Shown here one piece after another: positions 1 through 9,160 of a DNA stretch of 64,000 nt (positions within the stretch are counted from its first letter, which is position 1; each line of letters opens with the position of its first letter). The stretch spans positions 310,001 through 374,000 of the forward strand of contig NZ_QNQT01000003.1 in the NCBI RefSeq assembly GCF_003362805.1, read 5' to 3'. Origin of the DNA: Neobacillus piezotolerans (GTDB taxonomy: Bacteria > Bacillota > Bacilli > Bacillales > Cytobacillaceae). The notes under the pieces are model-generated. The model was not told the origin of the DNA, ran no database searches, and saw only the letters and a list, made by a program, of their open reading frames with translations. The position numbers and the translations under genes were made by a program.

Positions 1-77
1 CCGATTTCCCTTAGCATTTCCTCCTGCACTTCAGGAACGGTATTCGGTATGTATGGATGTGCTGTTTTTTTCATCAT
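1..77 (-). CDS. GcvPA-like glycine dehydrogenase subunit 1, N-terminal fragment (runs off the window)
   Basis: Only the first ~25 codons are visible. The reading frame starts at an ATG (77, or 74) behind a strong AAAGGAGAG ribosome site. The visible peptide carries the spacing Y-I-P-N-T-x6-M-L-x2-I-G, which is how the N-terminus of glycine decarboxylase P-protein subunit 1 (GcvPA) begins. GcvPA with GcvPB forms the PLP-dependent glycine-decarboxylating unit in Firmicutes. The gene starts 22 bp after the dehydrogenase gene on the same strand, so both are probably read from the sigma-54 promoter at 941-957. Family assignment rests on about 25 residues and is tentative; the rest of the gene lies outside. 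Confidence 0.55.
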   Translation of the reverse strand, partial: MMKKTAHPYIPNTVPEVQEEMLREI

Positions 78-99
78 TTTCTCTCCTTTTACATTTGAT

Positions 100-879
100 T
101 TAAGCCAAGCCGCCGCCGTCAACTGTCAATACGGTCCCTGTCACCCAGGAAGACATATCGCTTGCCAAAAATAACACGCCTTTTGCAATATCACGCGGCG
201 TTCCAATTCTCTCCAGCGGCCGTCCAACAGCAGAGGAGGACAGGAACTTAGCTTCATCCAACTGTAACTGCTTAGCTTCGTCCCGTAGAAGAGGCGTGTC
301 CGTATCACCCGGGCAAACGCAGTTCACACGAATGTTTTGGTTTCCATGGTCGATCGCCATTGCTTTCGTCAAATTCACAACTGCGGCCTTTGCCGCACAA
401 TAGGAGGCTGCCTGATCGCCGCCTTTTAAGCCCCAGCCTGAACCTGTGTTGACAATGCTGCCCCCGCCGTTTTTCTCCATGATTGGAATCACATATTTTG
501 ATAGTAAAAAAGCGCCTTTTAGAGAAACATTGATAACCAAATCCCAATCCTCTTCAGTATGCTCAACGACCGTTTTCCTGCGAATCAAACCAGCATTATT
601 AAATAAAACGTCAATTTTGCCAAATTGCTGCTCAACCTCGGAGGCTGCCCGTTCACAATCCGCCGCCGAAGTAACATCACATTTGAAGAACTCCGCTTTA
701 TATCCTCTGTCACGCAATTCCTTGGCGGCCTCGCCGCCGCGCTCTTCATTAATATCGAGCACCGCAACGGCTGCTCCCGCCTCGGCAAACAACTCGGCAG
801 TAGCGAGCCCGATTCCGGAAGCGCCGCCGGTTATCACCGCAACCTTATCTTTGATTCCCAATAGTTCTTCATAATTCAC
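100..879 (-). CDS. SDR family oxidoreductase
   Basis: Classical short-chain dehydrogenase/reductase of 259 residues, the usual length. The Rossmann glycine motif TGGASGIG is at residues 17-24, NNAG at 94-97, and the catalytic Y-x3-K at Y160/K164 with a serine near 147. The C-terminus VDGG is typical. An aspartate (D42) after beta-strand 2 suggests NAD(H) rather than NADP(H) preference. The start is GTG 879, because in-frame ATGs upstream run into a stop; GAAGGGATGGG supplies the ribosome site. It is probably cotranscribed with the GcvPA-like gene under sigma-54 control. The substrate cannot be read from sequence; the context suggests amino-acid or one-carbon catabolism (inference). Confidence 0.9.
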   Translation of the reverse strand: MNYEELLGIKDKVAVITGGASGIGLATAELFAEAGAAVAVLDINEERGGEAAKELRDRGYKAEFFKCDVTSAADCERAASEVEQQFGKIDVLFNNAGLIRRKTVVEHTEEDWDLVINVSLKGAFLLSKYVIPIMEKNGGGSIVNTGSGWGLKGGDQAASYCAAKAAVVNLTKAMAIDHGNQNIRVNCVCPGDTDTPLLRDEAKQLQLDEAKFLSSSAVGRPLERIGTPRDIAKGVLFLASDMSSWVTGTVLTVDGGGLA

Positions 880-940
880 TGCATTCCCATCCCTTCAAAA
901 TTTGGTTCGATAGAAAAACCATCTTTCACTTAATTAACCA

Positions 941-957
941 TGCAAGTACCGTGCCAA
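941..957 (-). promoter_or_regulatory. sigma-54 (-24/-12) promoter of the SDR operon
   Basis: Read on the minus strand the site is TTGGCACGGTACTTGCA, an excellent match to the sigma-54 consensus TGGCACG-N4-TTGCW with exactly 10 bp between the invariant GG and GC. It lies about 60 bp upstream of the SDR start codon and points at it. The divergent gene encodes a sigma-54 activator. Confidence 0.93.
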
Positions 958-1029
958 CTTTTGATTCTTCTGAAAATACTATCAATAAAGCGTTTTCATT
1001 TTCTTTTTCGAGAAAACACTCCTGCCATG

Positions 1030-1063
1030 TGTCAGAAATGACAAATTGCAGTCAGAAGTGACA
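1030..1063. promoter_or_regulatory. Tandem enhancer (UAS) sites for the divergent activator
   Basis: Two similar dyads: TGTCAGAAATGACA (1030-1043) and AGTCAGAAGTGACA (1050-1063). Both fit TGTCA-N4-TGACA and their centres are 20 bp apart (about two helical turns), 80-120 bp upstream of the -24 box. This is the geometry expected of an enhancer bound by a hexamer-forming sigma-54 activator with a Fis-type helix-turn-helix. That the 1285-2694 product binds here is an inference. Confidence 0.75.
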
Positions 1064-1206
1064 CTACTAATTTGAATATTAGTAATAATAAGTTAAGATG
1101 ATAGTATATAGATTCCAATAATACTTTGGTGTTGATTTTCGAACTTTTATTATCAACCTATAAACTCGGCTGGCCTTTTTTATTAAAAATAGTACGTGCC
1201 AGACGC

Positions 1207-1236
1207 TCACTAGTAATCTTCACAAATAACTAGTGA
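1207..1236. promoter_or_regulatory. 8-bp inverted repeat in front of the activator gene
   Basis: TCACTAGT (1207-1214) and ACTAGTGA (1229-1236) are perfect inverted arms with a 14-bp spacer, 50 bp upstream of the activator start. No T-run follows, so it looks more like an operator or mRNA leader hairpin than a terminator. Function unknown. Confidence 0.4.
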
Positions 1237-1284
1237 ATTCCCCGCCGTTTTTTCTAAAAGATGCAGCCCATTGGAGGATAATGA

Positions 1285-2694
1285 ATGCCGCTATTAAACT
1301 CTATTTCTAAAGTCATCCAGGCCTTTTCAAAATTGCTTCATGTCGAAATTGCTTGCTTTAATCCGAAAGGTGAACTGATTGCCGCGACAGAGGAATATAT
1401 TTTACGGAAAGGGACAAAGGTCCATGTTCCGTTTTTCAACAATTTGTATGGGCACCACATTACATTCCTTCATGAACCAGGCAAAATGCAATCGTGTGTA
1501 GGCTGCCATTTTATCAATCATTGCCCGTCCAAAGCGGAACTCGTTCAGGACATGATCATCAATGGGAAAAAATATGGCTATCTGTCATTCGTCAGTTTCT
1601 CGCCGGAAAACGAAGTCAAACTGATTGAAAATAAACAGTACTATATTGAATGGCTTTCCCGTTTAAAAGAAATCATTATTTCCATTTTGCGGGATACCGA
1701 TGTGTTTAAGGCGGCTGACAATCGCTATTTTGCCTTGGAAAATTATATTTTCGGTAAAAGTAAAGCGCTTACGGATATTCGGAAATTGATAAAGGGTATC
1801 CGCAATAGCACCTCGTCGATTTTAATTACTGGTGAAACCGGTACAGGAAAGAGTTTGCTTGCCCAGTATATTCACGAAATGAGCCTTGTGAGCAAAGGGC
1901 CGTTCGTCGAACTGAACTGCGCTGCCATTCCGGAAAGCTTATTTGAAAGCGAAATATTCGGCTATGAAGAAGGCGCGTTTACGAACGCGAAGAAGAGCGG
2001 GAAAAAGGGCTACTTTGAACTGGCCGATCACGGCACATTGTTCATGGATGAAATTGCCGATTTGCCTTTGAACCTGCAGCCGAAACTTTTAAAAGTGCTG
2101 CAGGATGGGATGATCATGCGCGTTGGCGGTACCAGTTCCAAAAAAGTAGACGTCCGGCTAATTTCGGCAACCAATCAGCCATTTAACGAGCTATTGGATG
2201 AAAAACGGTTCCGCTCTGATTTGTATTACCGTTTGAATGTCATTCCGATCACCATTCCGCCACTTCGCGAAAGAATGGAAGATTTAGCGCTTCTGGCCCT
2301 TCACTTTATAAAAAAATTGAAAGAGCGCACCGGAAAATTGATTGATTCCTGCTCAGAGGAATACATGGGCGTCCTCTCCGCCTATCACTGGCCGGGGAAT
2401 TTACGCGAGCTGGAAAATGTCATCGAGTACAGCATGAACATCGAGTCAAACAATGTTTTGACAACGGATTCCTTGCCGCCTTATCTAGCCAATTCAGCAG
2501 TGAGCCGACCCATCCTGGCAGGTAAATCGACCAGCCCAAAACCGGGCCTCGCAGAAGCAGAACGCGACGTAATTATCCAGAAATTGCAGGCGTACGAAAA
2601 CAGCTATACCGGAAAACAAAAGGCGGCAAAGGACTTAGGGATCAGCATCCGGACATTGTACAGGAAAATGGAGAAACTTGAAATTCATATTTAA
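1285..2694 (+). CDS. sigma-54-dependent transcriptional activator with cysteine-bearing sensor domain
   Basis: 469-residue bacterial enhancer-binding protein. Residues ~1-140 form a sensory domain with a C-x2-C-x5-C cluster (C71, C74, C80), suggestive of metal, redox or PocR-like ligand sensing. The AAA+ domain follows: Walker A GETGTGKS (183-190), Walker B LFMDEI (252-257), R-finger region FRSDLYYRLN. A Fis-type helix-turn-helix closes the protein (ISIRTLYRKM near the end). The sigma-54-contacting GAFTGA loop reads GAFTNA (230-235). ATG 1285 has GGAGG at 1273-1277; the ATG at 1281 is out of frame. It diverges from the SDR operon carrying a canonical sigma-54 promoter, so it very likely controls that operon in response to a small molecule (inference). 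Confidence 0.92.
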   Translation: MPLLNSISKVIQAFSKLLHVEIACFNPKGELIAATEEYILRKGTKVHVPFFNNLYGHHITFLHEPGKMQSCVGCHFINHCPSKAELVQDMIINGKKYGYLSFVSFSPENEVKLIENKQYYIEWLSRLKEIIISILRDTDVFKAADNRYFALENYIFGKSKALTDIRKLIKGIRNSTSSILITGETGTGKSLLAQYIHEMSLVSKGPFVELNCAAIPESLFESEIFGYEEGAFTNAKKSGKKGYFELADHGTLFMDEIADLPLNLQPKLLKVLQDGMIMRVGGTSSKKVDVRLISATNQPFNELLDEKRFRSDLYYRLNVIPITIPPLRERMEDLALLALHFIKKLKERTGKLIDSCSEEYMGVLSAYHWPGNLRELENVIEYSMNIESNNVLTTDSLPPYLANSAVSRPILAGKSTSPKPGLAEAERDVIIQKLQAYENSYTGKQKAAKDLGISIRTLYRKMEKLEIHI

Positions 2695-2793
2695 ATGGCG
2701 AGAAAGCAATCGGCGCAACTCTTTTTTCCTAACAAAAGCAGCCACCCACCAAACGTATGGCCGTTGTCCCAAAATCGGCTTAGTGAACCATGC

Positions 2794-2829
2794 AAAAAGA
2801 GGAGCTGGGATTATTGCCCGCTCCTCCTT
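2794..2829 (-). terminator. Rho-independent terminator of the HesB-like gene
   Basis: On the minus strand GAGGAGC and GCTCCTC arms, extended by GGG/CCC, enclose a short loop and are followed by TTTTT. It lies just after the HesB-like stop codon and also faces the 3' end of the sigma-54 activator gene. Confidence 0.8.
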
Positions 2830-2850
2830 TGCGTCGTACATACAAAAAAT

Positions 2851-3156
2851 CTACTTATTCACTTTCATCCCAAATGTCAGGATTTCAAAACTATTCTTAA
2901 GGATAAACCCATAATTATTCTTATGGTCGATTACGATATCTCCATCCAAATCGCCCACAACCTGCGGGTCAATAAGAATCGTGATTTCATCTACCTTAAA
3001 TACTTCTTCATCTTTTATTTGCTCAGCCTGAGCAAGTTCGTACACAAAGGTGGCACCTCAACCGGTTGTGCGGACCTGATTAATCTTTATGGTCTGTTCC
3101 GCGCCAAACACATGAATAAGCTGCTGTTTTGCATCATTCGATATTGTCACTTTCAT
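2851..3156 (-). CDS. HesB-like protein with in-frame TGA (candidate selenoprotein, or pseudogene)
   Basis: One continuous frame of 101 sense codons plus an internal TGA at codon 33 (3058-3060). The true start is ATG 3156 with GAGGTG six bases upstream; only the part after the TGA is an uninterrupted frame. The protein resembles small HesB/YqkB-type iron-sulfur biosynthesis proteins: the N-terminus begins like MKVTISNDAK, and the middle reads IDPQVVGDLDGDIVIDHK, then an NYGF segment. The TGA falls in TTG-x-GATF, the position of the Gly-Cys-Gly ligand cysteine in the family. The frame stays open and family-like for 68 codons after the TGA. A hairpin fitting the bacterial SECIS description lies 22 nt downstream. 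Either UGA is read as selenocysteine, or a Cys codon recently mutated to stop. A GTG at 3045 with GAGGTG in front could also allow restart. Confidence 0.6.
3019..3035 (-). promoter_or_regulatory. SECIS-like stem-loop after the in-frame TGA
   Basis: On the minus strand TTGCTCA and TGAGCAA form a perfect 7-bp stem closed by the 3-nt loop GGC. The loop lies 29 nt after the TGA. Bacterial SECIS elements are described, from memory, as having an apical loop about 16-37 nt from the UGA with a G among its first two bases; both hold here. The hairpin is within coding sequence, as is normal for bacterial SECIS. Function is unproven. Confidence 0.45.
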
Positions 3157-3358
3157 TTATTTCACCTCTATACTAATTTACCCCTCCCCAGGTGCATTAA
3201 TCAAAACTCCTGTCTGAAACAAGACTTTGCAGAATCAGAAAACGTTTCTCCCATCTGAAAAACGCTACTGATTGAAAGCCTGTGATTAGATAGGATTACT
3301 AGAAAGTTTAAATGAGGTGATCTCATGGTTGGCAGAAATGATGCATGCCAGTGCTCTC
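3157..3358. other. Intergenic stretch without recognised gene
   Basis: Holds the HesB-like ribosome site at its left edge and presumably that gene's promoter. No coding frame with a ribosome site is apparent. The right end merges into the 21-bp tandem array. Confidence 0.5.
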
Positions 3359-3456
3359 TTATCAGTAAGTAAACCCCTTTTATCAGTAAACGAAACCCTC
3401 TTATCAACAAACGAAACTCCTTTATCAGCAAACGGGACCCTCTTATTAGCAAACAC
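3359..3456. repeat. 21-bp-period tandem array (TTATCAGTAAACGAAACCC type)
   Basis: Four to five degenerate units each beginning TTATCAGTAA or a close variant recur at exactly 21 bp. The period is a multiple of three, so translation gives spurious repetitive peptides (LLIKGFR-like), but no ribosome site supports them. The same family recurs at 54069-54153. Confidence 0.8.
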
Positions 3457-3463
3457 GCGCACG

Positions 3464-5188
3464 TTATAAAAGCGTCACTCTCAACCCTGACTTAGCCCCC
3501 TCATTCTCCTCCAACAAATGCCCAAGCATCAAAAACACGCTCGATGTCCACGTAAACGCCGGATCACGCAAGCCATCCCCCGACAGAGCATTGAAATTTT
3601 CCGCCATCCCCGACGTTGACGCCATGCGACAAAACCTTCTCGCAATCTCAAGCGCCAGCTCTTCTTCCCCCGCTGACAGTAGTCCATCCACCACGAGCAT
3701 CGTCGTCGGCGCCCAAATAGGTCCCCGCCAGTAGCCATCTTCCTTATAGAACTGGCTGGACGGCAGCTCTGTCGCCAGGCCATTCTCTGTTAAAAAACCC
3801 TTATTTTTAATCCCGTCTACCAACTTCTCCCGAATCCCATCCGGAAGCCTTTTTCCAAGAATAATAGGAATATAGAGGACTAGGCTATCCGATTCAATCA
3901 CTTCATGCGTCCCGGATTTCTTCGCCACAAACCGCTCGCCATCCCAGAAATGATCAATCATGTTCGTCAATAGCCCCTCGGATTCCCGCCTCCACCTATC
4001 AGCCTCGCCCGCAAGGCCCAGCTTCTCAGCGATTTCCGCCAGCACGTCCATTTGCAGGACCAGGAACGATGACAGGTCCGGACTTTCCACCGGAGTTCCC
4101 TTTCGAAAAATCGTGCTGTTGTCCCAGCCACTGTCATTCCCGTGGTTATATTGCGGAATCCCATCCCCATCACTATCTTGGTACGTCAGCCACCAACGCG
4201 TCCAACTAGCCAACGGCCCGTACACTTCCCGCAATCTCTCCGCACTCACATAATCGGTCTGTTCCCAAATCCGCCTCAACGTCCAGCCATGGATTGGCGG
4301 CTTCGTAAAATTCCACAACGCAAACCGATTATTTACGAAATCCGGAAGCATCCCCGACTCATCCTGCAGGTCGAAAAAAATCATAAACTGGTCCCACGCA
4401 AGCTCCGGTGAATGCTTCGCAAGCGCCATCGCATTGAAACAATGATCCCAGCTCCAAATGTTCGTCATCCAGTTCTTCGACATGTACATCGCCGGCCGCG
4501 TCAACATCCCCTCCGGCGAAACGACGCACGACCACGTAATATAACCCGCCAGCTCCCGGCCCCCCGCATACTCCCCAGGCACCGAAAGAACACGCTGAAT
4601 CCACAACTCGTACTCCTTTTCAACGAGCTCTTGCCCTTTTGAAAAAGAAACATAGGATCTCGGCCGATACACAGTCGTATACTCTTCCATCACGCATTCC
4701 ATCTCCGTCGACGGTCCAGGAAGAAGATTCACGATGATTTTTTCACAGCGTTGCTCCTTGAACGGGGCATCCATCTCAATCCGCCCCTTTACCGCCGTAA
4801 GCATATAACGCATTTCCTGAGACGAATGATTCACTTCCCAGCGGTTCTCGCCAACAAGGGCAGCATAATCATAGGCACCGGTAATCCCCGTCAGCCTAAC
4901 CCCGACACCTACGCTCCATATTTGCAAAACCCGCGCTTCCGTAATGCAAAATTCCGCAAATCCGCCGTCCGTTTCTAGGCGCAGCAAACTCGGAGACATT
5001 TCAGGCTGATAGGACACGGGCTCGCCATCCCGAATCAACTCAATCCGGAACACCTCGCCAAAATTATTGTCCCCGTTCCGGATGTTCCGAATATAAAGCG
5101 CCCCATCCTCGCCGCCCCGTCTATGCTTCGGTGAAATCGTAATAAAAGAACCATATCGGCTAAAAGGGATTTTCTTAACATCAAACAT
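3464..5188 (-). CDS. Cytosolic glycoside hydrolase, MGH1/GH63-like (alpha/alpha-toroid)
   Basis: About 574 residues from ATG 5188, which has AAAGGAAG seven bases upstream; an upstream extension to 5272 lacks a ribosome site and family similarity. There is no signal peptide. The N-terminal third is beta-rich. The rest carries hallmarks of the MGH1-like/GH63 six-hairpin catalytic domain: the SWDHCFNAMALAKH segment, LQDESGMLPDFVNN, PPIHGW, SDGDGIPQYNHGNDSGWDNST, and WRGPIWAPTTM near the end. Such enzymes hydrolyse alpha-glucosides or alpha-mannosides, including mannosyl- or glucosylglycerate. It follows the ABC sugar importer on the same strand, so it probably cleaves the imported oligosaccharide (inference). 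Substrate not determinable. Confidence 0.8.
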   Translation of the reverse strand: MFDVKKIPFSRYGSFITISPKHRRGGEDGALYIRNIRNGDNNFGEVFRIELIRDGEPVSYQPEMSPSLLRLETDGGFAEFCITEARVLQIWSVGVGVRLTGITGAYDYAALVGENRWEVNHSSQEMRYMLTAVKGRIEMDAPFKEQRCEKIIVNLLPGPSTEMECVMEEYTTVYRPRSYVSFSKGQELVEKEYELWIQRVLSVPGEYAGGRELAGYITWSCVVSPEGMLTRPAMYMSKNWMTNIWSWDHCFNAMALAKHSPELAWDQFMIFFDLQDESGMLPDFVNNRFALWNFTKPPIHGWTLRRIWEQTDYVSAERLREVYGPLASWTRWWLTYQDSDGDGIPQYNHGNDSGWDNSTIFRKGTPVESPDLSSFLVLQMDVLAEIAEKLGLAGEADRWRRESEGLLTNMIDHFWDGERFVAKKSGTHEVIESDSLVLYIPIILGKRLPDGIREKLVDGIKNKGFLTENGLATELPSSQFYKEDGYWRGPIWAPTTMLVVDGLLSAGEEELALEIARRFCRMASTSGMAENFNALSGDGLRDPAFTWTSSVFLMLGHLLEENEGAKSGLRVTLL

Positions 5189-5284
5189 TAACCCACTTCC
5201 TTTATTTTCAAAAAAATTATGTAGATTGCCCAAAATTGTATAGTCTAATAGAACCTTGAGGTAGATCTCCAAACTTTTGTCCTG

Positions 5285-5655
5285 GTGCCCAAAGCTAACT
5301 CATGTTTGGACACAAAAGTGGGTTTTCAAAGCCTGCGTGTCCAAAGCTGACTCATGTTTGGACACAGAACTGAGTTTTCAAAGCCTGCGTGTCTAAAGTT
5401 GCCTCATGTTTCTACACATAATTGAGTTTTCTAAGCCTGTGTGTCCAAAGCTAACGCATGTTTGGACACAGAAGTGAGTTTTCTAAGCCTGCGTGTCCAA
5501 AACTAACTCATGTTTGGACACAGAACTGAGTTTTCTAAGCCTGCGTGTTCAAAGCTGACTTATGTTTGGAAACAAAAGTAACTTTTCATAGGTTGCGTGT
5601 CCAAAGCAGCCTCATGTTTGGACACGGTCGTGAGTTTTAATAAGCTACGAGTCCA
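5285..5655. repeat. 52-bp tandem array, ~7 units, each with a GTGTCCAAA/TTTGGACAC dyad
   Basis: Units of 52 bp recur about seven times between the glycoside hydrolase and the GC-rich repeat. Each unit holds the inverted arms GTGTCCAAA and TTTGGACAC around an 11-bp centre ending CATG, followed by a conserved tail like GAGTTTTCAAAGCCTGC. Several arms show paired changes. There is no coding potential, because 52 is not a multiple of 3. Confidence 0.9.
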
Positions 5656-5802
5656 AGTGAGGCATGGATATTGCCACAGCCTAAGGATTTCGGTCACTTT
5701 TTCTAGCTAAAGCTGATCCTTGGGGGGAACGAAATGAAAAAAGGTTCACCAAAGTTGCTAGCTAGGTTGAAAAAACTTTTACGCTCTTTGTTTTCAGAGC
5801 AA

Positions 5803-5932
5803 GTTGATTGGAGCGGAAGGCGCGAAGACTCCTGCGGGAAAAGCTGGCCAGGGGAGACCCCGCAGGCATGGGTTTCGCCGAGGAGGCTCCCGGACTGCCC
5901 GCGGAAAGCGAAGCGCCTGTAGCGCAAATCAA
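5803..5932. repeat. GC-rich Bacillaceae intergenic repeat, copy 1
   Basis: A 130-bp GC-rich block bounded by GTTGATT and AATCAAC (7-bp terminal inverted repeat). It contains ACTCCTGCGGGAA, GGGGAGACCCCGCAGG, GCCGAGGAGGCTC and CCGCGGAAAGCGAAGCGCC. Related copies are at 23721-24017 (inverted, interrupted) and 29278-29400 (diverged). The type is familiar as an abundant dispersed intergenic repeat in Bacillaceae; it has no coding frame of its own. Confidence 0.85.
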
Positions 5933-5976
5933 CCGCATGGTTACATGAAAATATAAGATTCTTGATACAACCTATT

Positions 5977-6005
5977 TAAAAAAATGGATGAACCAAGATT
6001 CATCC
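5977..6005 (-). terminator. Terminator of the sugar ABC transporter operon
   Basis: On the minus strand GGATGAA and TTCATCC arms with a 6-nt loop are followed by ATTTTTTT, about 40 bp after the stop of the distal permease. Confidence 0.8.
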
Positions 6006-6009
6006 ACAC

Positions 6010-6069
6010 AATCTATTATTTTTACCAAGTAGTCTGCACAATCTCTTATTTCAACCCAGTAGTCTGCAC
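6010..6069. repeat. 30-bp tandem duplication at the 3' end of the permease gene
   Basis: Two adjacent 30-bp copies (6010-6039 and 6040-6069) match at about 26 positions. The right-hand copy contains the last codons and stop of the permease; the left-hand copy is a non-coding duplicate just after the stop. Confidence 0.75.
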
Positions 6070-6873
6070 ACCCTCGACGATTTTCTTTTGCGCGAAAAAG
6101 AACAAAATAAGCGGGAAAATACTGATCAGGAACGTAACCGCCATGATGCCGTTCGTATCAACATTATGAACCCCTTTAAACGAAGCCAGGCCAAGCGTCA
6201 ACGTATATTTGCTCTGGTCATTCAGGAAAATCAGCGGGCCTAAATAATCATTCCAGCTGCCCAATATATTGAACACCGCAATCAGTACAATGACCGGCCA
6301 CACGAGCGGCAAATAGATTTTGTAATAGATTTGGAACACATTCGCCCCGTCCATTTTTGCCGCTTCATCCAGTTCTTTCGGAATCGACATAATGAATTGC
6401 CGCAATAGGAAAATATAAAACGCGGAACCGAACCAGGAAGGAACAATCAATGCCTTCAGTGTGTTGATCCAGCCAAACATATTAAATTCCATATATTGCG
6501 GGATCATCGTTACTTCCCATGGAATCATCATTGTCGCAAGCAAAATAATGAACAGCGTATCCCGCCCTTTAAATTGGAACCGCGCGAACCCGTACGCAAC
6601 AAGGGTGGATGAAATAATCTGTCCAAGGGTCGTCATGAACGTGACCACTAAACTATTCACCAGGAAAGTATTAAATGGCTGGCTGTTCCACGCTTTGGCA
6701 AAGTTCTCGAAGTGCCATGTGGAAGGAAAGAATTTCGGCGGATAAAGGCTAAGCTCTTCCGGCCCTTTCAGCGCGGTCATCACCATCCAAAAAAACGGCA
6801 AAAGAAATAAGAGTGACAGGGCAATCAACAAACCATAAACAATGATTTTCTGGATACGCATTTTCCCTTTCAT
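6046..6873 (-). CDS. Carbohydrate ABC transporter permease, MalG/AraQ type
   Basis: 275 residues with about six hydrophobic segments and the cytoplasmic EAA loop EAAKMDGANVFQIYYKIYLP (near residues 170-190) that docks on the ATPase. This is the second permease of a CUT1-family sugar importer. ATG 6873 has AAGGAGGTG upstream. The ATPase is not encoded here; CUT1 systems in Bacillus commonly share one MsmX-type ATPase (known for the family). It follows the first permease by 17 bp, so the two are cotranscribed. Confidence 0.92.
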   Translation of the reverse strand: MKGKMRIQKIIVYGLLIALSLLFLLPFFWMVMTALKGPEELSLYPPKFFPSTWHFENFAKAWNSQPFNTFLVNSLVVTFMTTLGQIISSTLVAYGFARFQFKGRDTLFIILLATMMIPWEVTMIPQYMEFNMFGWINTLKALIVPSWFGSAFYIFLLRQFIMSIPKELDEAAKMDGANVFQIYYKIYLPLVWPVIVLIAVFNILGSWNDYLGPLIFLNDQSKYTLTLGLASFKGVHNVDTNGIMAVTFLISIFPLILFFFAQKKIVEGVQTTGLK

Positions 6874-6890
6874 CCGGAATCGGCACCTCC

Positions 6891-7838
6891 TTACTTTTCT
6901 TTATTTTTAACTTCACTTTCGTAAAACACCCACATGCTCGATGATTTAAAGACAAGCATCGTTAAAGACAGCACAATAATGAACATGACCCACGCGTTGG
7001 CGGATGAATAGCCCATTTTGAAGTATTTGAACGCATTTTCGTACACATACATTGCATAGAAATAGGTCGACTGCATCGGGCCGCCGCCTGTCAGCACAAG
7101 TGCGAGCGTCAAGGTTTGGAACGCCCCGATAATCGTCATAATCAAATTGAAAAGAATTGTTGGCGACAATAAGGGAATCGTTATTTTGAAAAATTTATAG
7201 AGCTTCCCGGCCCCATCAATTTCCGCCGCCTCGTATAAATCCAACGGAATATTTTTCAAACCCGCCAGGAAAATCAGCATCATCGTCCCTTGTCCCCATA
7301 AACTGGCAATCACCATCGCAACAAGCGCCCAGTTTGTGTCATTCAGCCATCTCGGCCCCTCAATGCCTATGAAAGAAAGCAAGTAGTTCAATATTCCGTA
7401 TTCGCCATCGAAAACCGTCCCCCAAATCATCGCCAGCGCAACGCCGGAAATAACGGAAGGAACATAGAAAAACGTGCGGAAAAGCGAGCTTCCCTTTACC
7501 TTTTGGTTCAGCAAAACCGCCAGCAGCAAAGCTAAAATAATATTCAACGGAACAAAGATCATCGCATACTTCACCGTAATCCATAGGGAATGCCAAAACA
7601 GCGGGTCATCCGTAAACATCGTTATGTAGTTGGAAAGTCCGACAAATTCAACTTCCCCGACTATCGGCCAATCATAAAAACTAATCACAAGTGAAAACAA
7701 TAGCGGTCCAATGGTAAACACAACAAAGCCTATGATCCACGGTGCAATAAACAGATAGGGGACCAATTGGCCCCATTTCCTTTTCCTCTTAAGCGGAAGT
7801 GCCGAGGGTGCAGTATTAATACTTAAGCTGGATTTCAT
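6891..7838 (-). CDS. Carbohydrate ABC transporter permease, MalF/UgpA type
   Basis: 315 residues with six to seven transmembrane segments and EAA loop YEAAEIDGAGKLYKFFKIT. It is the first permease of the CUT1 importer. Start ATG 7838 is preceded by GGAGGAGG. It sits between the binding protein and the second permease; a hairpin at 7862-7901 separates it from the binding-protein gene. Confidence 0.92.
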   Translation of the reverse strand: MKSSLSINTAPSALPLKRKRKWGQLVPYLFIAPWIIGFVVFTIGPLLFSLVISFYDWPIVGEVEFVGLSNYITMFTDDPLFWHSLWITVKYAMIFVPLNIILALLLAVLLNQKVKGSSLFRTFFYVPSVISGVALAMIWGTVFDGEYGILNYLLSFIGIEGPRWLNDTNWALVAMVIASLWGQGTMMLIFLAGLKNIPLDLYEAAEIDGAGKLYKFFKITIPLLSPTILFNLIMTIIGAFQTLTLALVLTGGGPMQSTYFYAMYVYENAFKYFKMGYSSANAWVMFIIVLSLTMLVFKSSSMWVFYESEVKNKEK

Positions 7839-7861
7839 CGGATGCCTCCTCCTGCTTTTTG

Positions 7862-7901
7862 TAAAGGCCCCACAACACTCTGGTGGTTGTGGAGCCTTTT
7901 G
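7862..7901 (-). terminator. Intercistronic hairpin after the binding-protein gene
   Basis: Arms AAAGGC-CCACAAC and GTTGTGG-GCCTTTT form a strong stem right after the binding-protein stop. The downstream U-run is weak on the minus strand (TTTACAAAAAG), so partial termination or mRNA 3'-end protection is more likely than full termination. That would keep the binding protein in excess over the permeases. Confidence 0.6.
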
Positions 7902-7906
7902 CCAAT

Positions 7907-9160
7907 TTATTTAGATAAATATTTCTCCGAATCTTTCACGGCTTTATCGAGCAATGGCTTTGCATCCTGTCCAATCATGGCCGCATTTAGGGCGGCGGAC
8001 AGGTTGCGGTTTACCTCGTTCCAATTTTTATTCAATAGGAACGCCGGTGAATTATCCGCTTTTTCAAGCATCGTGTAGAAAGGCTTATACAATGGATCTT
8101 CCGTTACTTTCGTTTCTTCCACGACACTTTTGCGGACAGGAAGGTCTGCTGTTCTCATCTTGATTGCCTGATCAGAGGAAAAGAATTTCACAAACTTCCA
8201 GGCTAAATCCTTTTTCTTTGAATCTTTCGCGATTGAAATCGATGACGAGTTAATTAATCCTTTTACAGGCTTGGAATCAAACGCCGGCATCATCACTGTT
8301 CCAAAGTCTACTTTTGCATCTTTATAGCCTTGAATCGACCAAATACCATTGACGAGCATTCCAAGTTTGTTGGCCTTGAAAATCTCGCTTGCGCTTTGTT
8401 GATTCGCCCCGCCCGTCGAAACAGCAATTCCTTCCTTTACCATATCGCCGTACATTTGCAATGCATCAACCGTTTCTTTGCTATTCATGACTCCATCAAT
8501 TTTCGTGCCGTCATCCGAGATGAAACTTCCGCCGTTGCTCCAAACCAAACCTTGCAAATCATACGTATCTGGCTCGGACGTTACCGCAAATCCATATTGT
8601 TTCTTGCTTTTATCGGTTAGCTTCTTGGCAATATCTTTGAATTCATCCCAAGTCCAGCCTTCCTGCGGATAAGGAATCCCCGCTTCGTCAAACAGCTTTT
8701 TATTATAATAGACTACCATCGTGGAGAATCCAGCCGGCATTCCATATAGTTTTCCATCCACTTTTGAATAGTTGAAAAGCCCTTCGTAAAAATCATCCAT
8801 GTTGATATCGGAATCTTGCTCCGCATATCCATCAAGCGGTTCAAGCGATTGGTGGTACGTCGTAAAATCCCACATATACATTACATCCGGGGGGTTTTTT
8901 GCCCCGAATGAGGCGGCGATTTTTTGATCAAACCCATCTCCGTAAGCCTCAACCTGCACCTTTACATCTTTATTTTCTTTTTCAAAAGCTTTTGCGATAT
9001 CCTCCTGGATTTTCAGGGTATCTCCCGCATCCCAAGTGGCAAAGCGCAAAACTGTTTTTCCGTCCTTTTTTTCAGCCCCGGAAGAAGTGTTCGAACTGCA
9101 CGCGCTCAACAAAAGAGCAAATGCAACCAGCAGGGAAAACACTAAATTTCTTTTTTTCAT
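7907..9160 (-). CDS. Extracellular sugar-binding lipoprotein of the ABC importer
   Basis: About 417 residues. ATG 9160 is chosen because AGAGGGG lies just upstream and it begins a textbook lipoprotein signal (KKR, hydrophobic stretch, lipobox LSAC with the lipidated Cys near residue 23). A longer frame to 9214 would overlap the promoter-proximal operator. The body is family-1 solute-binding protein: GKTVLRFATWDAGD near the start, PPDVMYMWDFTTYHQ, YGMPAGFSTMVVYYNKKLFDEAG, GWTWDEF. Cell-surface capture of an oligosaccharide for the two permeases. First gene of the transport operon, next to a YesM/YesN-type two-component pair. Confidence 0.92.
   Translation of the reverse strand: MKKRNLVFSLLVAFALLLSACSSNTSSGAEKKDGKTVLRFATWDAGDTLKIQEDIAKAFEKENKDVKVQVEAYGDGFDQKIAASFGAKNPPDVMYMWDFTTYHQSLEPLDGYAEQDSDINMDDFYEGLFNYSKVDGKLYGMPAGFSTMVVYYNKKLFDEAGIPYPQEGWTWDEFKDIAKKLTDKSKKQYGFAVTSEPDTYDLQGLVWSNGGSFISDDGTKIDGVMNSKETVDALQMYGDMVKEGIAVSTGGANQQSASEIFKANKLGMLVNGIWSIQGYKDAKVDFGTVMMPAFDSKPVKGLINSSSISIAKDSKKKDLAWKFVKFFSSDQAIKMRTADLPVRKSVVEETKVTEDPLYKPFYTMLEKADNSPAFLLNKNWNEVNRNLSAALNAAMIGQDAKPLLDKAVKDSEKYLSK

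Follow-up and report, generated by a model that had tools for sequence, protein, structure and literature searches.

A candidate selenoprotein gene of the HesB/IscA fold, with an in-frame TGA and a conserved downstream hairpin, in Neobacillus piezotolerans

Introduction

The A-type carriers IscA, SufA and ErpA have three conserved cysteines, one internal and two C-terminal. HesB-like proteins with selenocysteine (Sec) have also been described: a survey counts 119 prokaryotic selenoprotein families or subfamilies, with a separate subfamily for each differing Sec position or motif, and the one HesB-like entry in its printed Table 1 is of the UxGP type and represented by TIGR01911 (PMC13188914). 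HesB-like genes have been counted in 86 organisms (PMC5029168); three selenoproteins in Bacillales, and in HesB-like proteins Sec-to-Cys changes and a remnant resembling the selenocysteine insertion sequence (SECIS) in a Cys member were reported in 2006 (PMC1794560). HesB sequences were considered too short and too diverged for clustering as one family (PMC1914089), and the function of the HesB-like homologue in M. maripaludis is described as not clear (PMC11097638); in B. subtilis, YneR/PdhI acts as an inhibitor of pyruvate dehydrogenase E1 (PMC10090944). The present analysis concerns a gene near the beginning of a 64,000-nucleotide stretch of the Neobacillus piezotolerans genome (contig NZ_QNQT01000003.1, positions 310,001 to 374,000; hereafter the window), originally predicted to be a HesB-like gene with an in-frame UGA at the conserved cysteine.

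The window gene very probably codes for a small selenoprotein of the A-type carrier fold (IscA/HesB/YneR), into which Sec is inserted at the codon-33 UGA by way of a hairpin. The computed basis consists of a conserved TGA, a constrained intragenic RNA element and a full set of Sec machinery, and further of joint occurrence with selA, an alignment column in which Cys and Sec exchange, and the predicted fold. On this model, a ribosome would reach the UGA at codon 33, the hairpin 22 nt downstream would recruit SelB loaded with Sec-tRNA(UCA), and Sec would be inserted where Cys-bearing relatives hold the conserved cysteine. Sec insertion itself is what we infer from sequence; the gene is a selenoprotein candidate by all computational criteria tested, folding energy aside.

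Results

The window gene and its signals have the following window coordinates:
2851..3156, minus strand: candidate HesB/IscA-fold selenoprotein coding sequence (CDS), from translation; 101 residues with Sec at 33; TAG stop at 2853-2851
3058..3060, minus strand: in-frame TGA, codon 33, putatively read as Sec; TGA in each of the 33 distinct orthologous CDS
3019..3035, minus strand: bacterial SECIS (bSECIS)-type hairpin; 7-bp stem; GGC loop at 3028-3026; UGA-to-loop distance 29 nt
3162..3168, minus strand: GAGGTGA, resembling a ribosome-binding site (RBS), 5 nt ahead of the ATG, from the sequence

Translation of the frame from 3156 to 2851 gives 32 codons, the TGA, 68 sense codons and the TAG, with TTG and GATF on either side of the TGA, just as originally predicted; the sequence bears out the claimed 7-bp stem with GGC loop starting 22 nt past the TGA (TTGCTCA-GGC-TGAGCAA), and the claimed position of the TGA at a conserved ligand cysteine agrees with its alignment to the column in which Cys-bearing relatives have an invariant Cys. 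GAGGTGA or a near variant precedes the ATG in most orthologues, as read, uncounted, from the printed sequences. The read-through window protein matches PF01521 (Fe-S_biosyn) over residues 1-100 with 30.9 bits (cut-off 26.3), and all 28 scanned subfamily members match this domain (E ≤ 0.001); in a six-frame genome scan the same place reached 25.5 bits, slightly under the gathering cut-off. The fold predicted by AlphaFold, with Sec given as Cys, is that of IscA/YneR; the best of five models had a predicted local distance difference test score (pLDDT) of 81.3, and the other four 66.6-72.3.

A family-wide search of 193 genomes yielded matches in 54. All 37 matches with E ≤ 1e-11, from 36 of the 193 genomes, have exactly one in-frame stop, and this stop is TGA; the 23 weaker matches (≤31% identity) have no in-frame stop. 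Of 54 loci, 30 came from the family search and 24 were named loci of Neobacillus, Mesobacillus, Niallia and Bacillus; they gave 33 distinct CDS, from which the profile alignment and the hairpin alignment each drew 28 rows. The orthologue alignment that had been proposed as a check places TGA at codon 33 throughout this set, which spans several genera, within a motif that is always U-[GS]-A-[TA]; none of the 33 proteins contains a cysteine anywhere. The mean pairwise ratio of nonsynonymous to synonymous differences (pN/pS) was 0.35 ahead of the TGA and 0.25 beyond it. A match in Peribacillus glennii (L088), partial and with many stops around it, was excluded from the CDS set; residues 75-97 alone are recognisable in this remnant. 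One genome (G019) has a second gene copy (L149, 7 kb) ca. 5 kb from the first; it keeps TGA and hairpin, but its N-terminus has diverged, and it may be a duplicate in decay.

Under the bSECIS constraints taken from section 5 of PMC13188914, all 33 CDS have a GGN loop (GGT, GGC or GGG) at 29 nt from the UGA and a stem of 6-9 bp; in 32 of them the stem has at least 7 bp at the identical place, and in the remaining one 6 bp. Synonymous divergence, 0.56-0.91 in windows away from TGA and hairpin and 0.47-0.51 in the two windows holding the TGA, fell to 0.015 over the hairpin codons 40-45, where GAA, CTT and CAG are each present in 33/33 CDS and GCT and GAG each in 32/33. In one CDS (L045) the only GCC coincides with the only GGG, a compensatory change from a U-A to a C-G pair that was matched in 12 of 500 shuffles. 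Gap-free hairpins of at least 7 bp following the same loop and spacing rules occurred at 104 of 2040 control codon positions in the same genes, and a single hairpin on its own is weak evidence; this hairpin is considered non-accidental because it is conserved in place across orthologues, with near-zero synonymous change. An Rfam scan of window positions 1-8000 (E ≤ 5) returned nothing, which leaves the hairpin outside any family of this library. Together with the conserved frame, these results strongly support the predicted reading of the codon-33 TGA as Sec.

The 4.53-Mb assembly (G000) contains all four genes for which a genome search had been suggested, selA, selB, selC (tRNA-Sec) and selD, and other genes with in-frame TGA:
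C1:895707: selB, 362 bits
C35:200168: selA, 561 bits
C1:772128: tRNA-Sec, 65.2 bits; ARAGORN SeC, tca
C35:198702: selD, 396 bits, with its own in-frame TGA
C12:210219 and C32:193969 (L103 and L104): FdhA (formate dehydrogenase alpha subunit), with TGA in R-I-U-H-S, and the second, FdhA-like gene of this pair, with TGA in T-U-H-A-P followed by a hairpin
C35, locus L028, 12670-12960, ca. 8 kb from selA: second HesB-type gene, with TGA in G-I-G-U-G-G-P

Counting the window gene, selD, FdhA, the FdhA-like gene and the second HesB-type gene, the genome thus has five or more selenoprotein-type genes with an in-frame TGA. The motif of the second HesB-type gene is of the described UxGP type, yet the gene falls below the cut-offs of both TIGR01911 (22.4 bits) and NF038090.

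An order-wide profile search of 397 genomes gave matches in 288; among the best matches listed, of which part were examined, more distant relatives have either TGA or Cys in the column of window codon 33. Close members of the window subfamily were found solely within its own order, Bacillales, and a phylum-wide search with the 28-row profile matched one of 398 sampled genomes, N. piezotolerans itself. In the examined Sec relatives outside the window subfamily the loop also has GG, formed by CTG GAT or CAG GAT. A 76-row, 104-column tree, from which two repeats (L089 and L090, of L086 and L084) were omitted and whose few columns and long branches leave root and deep order unsure, places the window subfamily and its nearest kin in a 22-row all-Sec clade (100/96). 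A second Sec subfamily with the motif D-T-[YF]-E-U-S-T (DTYEUST type) comprises 13 Sec genes (L096, L097, L131-L141); its 16-row clade (99/97) includes these 13 and three Cys members, two of them (L124, L157) on well-supported inner branches and one (L158) whose branches reach no more than 88. With five genes beyond the tree (L163-L167), whose reading bore out their classing as Cys, there are eight DTYEUST-type Cys genes in all. The loop codon is CTG in all 13 Sec members; in four of the Cys genes it is CTA, CTT, CTT or TTA, and in the other four it is unrecognisable, so that the CTG-GAT loop GG is missing from 8/8 Cys genes. As side observations, a GSUS protein with TGA (L099, genome G314) adjoins a 22-row all-Cys YqkB-like clade in the tree, which could reflect a switch from Cys to Sec or an early form with Sec, and the order-wide search returned one homologue with a single in-frame TAG (G487:C23:99327-99626).

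Within the family, selA was found in 172 of 193 genomes, including all 36 with a strong TGA match; the original assertion that most Bacillus lack the Sec pathway misfits this lineage. Across the order, selA was tested in 58 chosen genomes of the 288 with matches, 25 picked for a TGA match and 33 for a Cys match, and was present in 25/25 of the former vs. 8/33 of the latter; a TGA genome may also carry a Cys paralogue, as N. piezotolerans does (L002). In genus g88, Cys-bearing G358 lacks selA and TGA-bearing G279, G334 and G383 have it, and seven of the eight genomes with a DTYEUST-type Cys gene are without selA. After correction for kinship, selA agreed in ca. 3.2 of five independent Sec/Cys contrasts on average and disagreed in none. 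In 12 of 13 genomes with a DTYEUST gene, this gene and selA share a contig and lie ca. 16-39 kb apart, possibly a Sec gene neighbourhood.

Around the window gene, two genes and a repeat are located as follows:
1285-2694, plus strand: sigma-54-dependent regulator gene, downstream of and convergent with the window gene
3464-5272, minus strand: glycoside-hydrolase-like gene, upstream
3356-3454: imperfect tandem repeat, upstream, with a 21-bp unit, 4.7 copies and 80% matches

A promoter scan found none, with a chance expectation of 1.7, and a protein-mode search of a plasmid collection gave no match. A NifS-type cysteine desulfurase-like gene, identified by eye, lies nearby on the opposite strand at 4 of 25 loci (the window and the 24 named loci).

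Discussion

Several observations weigh against Sec insertion via this hairpin. The 60 nt following the UGA fold like shuffled sequences (z -0.33; 68 of 200 shuffles equally good), and the isolated 18-nt hairpin reaches -6.7 kcal/mol vs. a published limit of -7.5, with -11.1 for the 60-nt segment; the compensatory pair change is a single event among 28 sequences. When 29 rows of relatives were subjected to the gap-free bSECIS test, nothing was found in two (L131, L140), a different hairpin in three (L133, L134, L136), and a stem of just 4 bp in two (L135, L138). A GGUS-type homologue (L168, genome G527, counted among the 25 TGA genomes all the same) has its TGA where expected and another stop close to the match end. 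The perfect 36/36 association with selA is modest evidence because selA is so common in the family; G307 (genus g30) has Cys yet keeps selA, and the five kinship-corrected contrasts are too few to reach significance. Finally, no neighbour family is common to most of the 25 loci: the biggest neighbour cluster (seven loci) consists of a frame that runs antisense to the gene, and all others have at most six. Since neighbour families are shared too rarely, no functional partner can be proposed.

The original prediction had offered two explanations for the TGA. Sec insertion is supported by the shared TGA, the constrained hairpin and the presence of the Sec genes. Its counterpart, a fresh nonsense mutation in what would be a young pseudogene of a Cys protein, has in its favour the stop codon shown by the assembly; it is practically eliminated by an identical TGA in all 33 orthologous CDS of several genera, by 37 of 37 strong matches with TGA and not TGC or TGT, by purifying selection that persists downstream of the TGA, and by the complete Sec machinery of the genome. 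A nonsense mutation is excluded because the TGA is shared and both halves of the gene are conserved. If the UGA were a true stop, the locus would yield two short peptides, the second from the internal GTG at 3045, where a 64-amino-acid open reading frame begins; of the 33 CDS, 17 have GTG in column 38 and 12 have ATG, but four have the non-start GAG, an RBS-like sequence ahead of GTG 3045 was not seen by eye, the first stop is always TGA and never TAA or TAG, and the Cys relatives form a single continuous chain, all of which makes two peptides highly implausible. Low-level UGA read-through occurs in Bacillus subtilis, and the codon might be decoded as another amino acid, e.g., Trp, by near-cognate suppression; yet the relatives have Cys and not Trp in this column, and the genome has the Sec machinery and the gene a constrained hairpin beyond the UGA, so that suppression appears just as implausible.

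The gene could also be a member of the already described HesB-like selenoprotein family, with which it shares the Pfam domain and Sec at the conserved-Cys position; the window protein matches TIGR01911 (HesB_rel_seleno) weakly, with 23.7 bits, and 26 of 28 members match this model at E ≤ 0.01. The score is nevertheless below the curated cut-off of 66.35, the subfamily motif differs from UxGP in 33/33 CDS, and a separate U-G-G-P gene, itself below the TIGR01911 cut-off, is present in the same genome; on the split between the window subfamily and the UxGP type, the tree has 104 columns and a long branch there. Membership is on balance improbable, if far less so than the preceding alternatives. 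Scores were likewise below cut-off for NF038090 (IscA_HesB_Se; 19.5 bits, cut-off 85) and NF041239 (CC/Se motif family (seleno)protein; 18.2 bits, cut-off 40), and the window protein stays below the cut-off of every model in the June 2026 NCBIfam release. The original label "HesB-like" thus holds by domain and fold, but not for the described HesB-like selenoprotein family, given the score below its cut-off.

As to function, 33 of 33 Cys-free proteins imply one selenol per chain, and the three-Cys site of IscA/SufA would be unusable. The likeliest action of the predicted selenoprotein, a guess by analogy with its family, would be that of a homo-oligomer in which the selenol serves as ligand to a metal or Fe-S cluster or as carrier of labile selenium or sulfur; redox or regulatory use of the selenol would be alternative guesses. 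A regulatory protein like YneR/PdhI, in place of a metal or cluster binder, is unlikely: the YneR-like protein in the same genome (L004) lacks a Cys where the window protein has Sec, and therefore YneR/PdhI-type action would not depend on the residue that the window subfamily conserves.

Annotation can easily mistake such genes for truncated genes or pseudogenes, and the selenoproteome of Bacillaceae-type bacteria would gain a subfamily. The relatives form a natural Sec/Cys series, in which the RNA loop is absent from the DTYEUST-type Cys genes; selenium as the sole chalcogen side chain besides methionine makes the window subfamily suitable for asking why HesB-like proteins use Sec. As a tentative possibility, small selenoproteins with the A-type fold may form a large clan in Bacillales that has escaped recognition (including at least the UGAT, DTYEUST, GGUS/GGUG and GSUS types), mostly with a single chalcogen, in which repeated Sec/Cys swaps would track the Sec pathway and which could link selenium status to Fe-S or central metabolism in aerobic spore formers.

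Comparison with Known Systems

The subfamily is undescribed in the main texts of the open-licence literature examined, where nothing pairs YqkB, or Neobacillus, with selenoprotein; the available parts of PMC9312934, PMC1242214, PMC10090944 and PMC11097638 give no description of it. The HesB-like counts of PMC5029168 and PMC1794560 may include unnamed members. The pattern of Sec/Cys exchange is not new in kind, since it was reported for HesB-like proteins (PMC1794560).

Among the described systems, TIGR01911 resembles the window subfamily in its Fe-S_biosyn domain, its length of ca. 100 residues, its one Sec at the conserved Cys position and its downstream bSECIS, whereas the window subfamily stands apart in motif and score, lacks any Cys in its 33 proteins, and had close members only in its own order in the searches made. 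The three-Cys pattern of the A-type carriers IscA, SufA and ErpA is retained at the internal position alone, as Sec in 33/33 proteins: the two C-terminal cysteines are absent, and Sec takes the place of the first. The YneR-like protein L004 has neither Cys nor Sec at the window Sec position. L002 (G-S-C-S), a Cys protein in the same genome and of a type that we take to be YqkB, is of similar length, was found by the same profile and has its Cys in the Sec column; it differs by Cys for Sec, by the absence of the GG-loop codons, and by an identity of only 23% to the window protein. Because differing Sec positions or motifs separate subfamilies under the rule of PMC13188914, the window gene is, as judged from sequence, a separate predicted selenoprotein subfamily of Bacillales, outside the UxGP HesB-like family by cut-off and with YqkB-type Cys kin.
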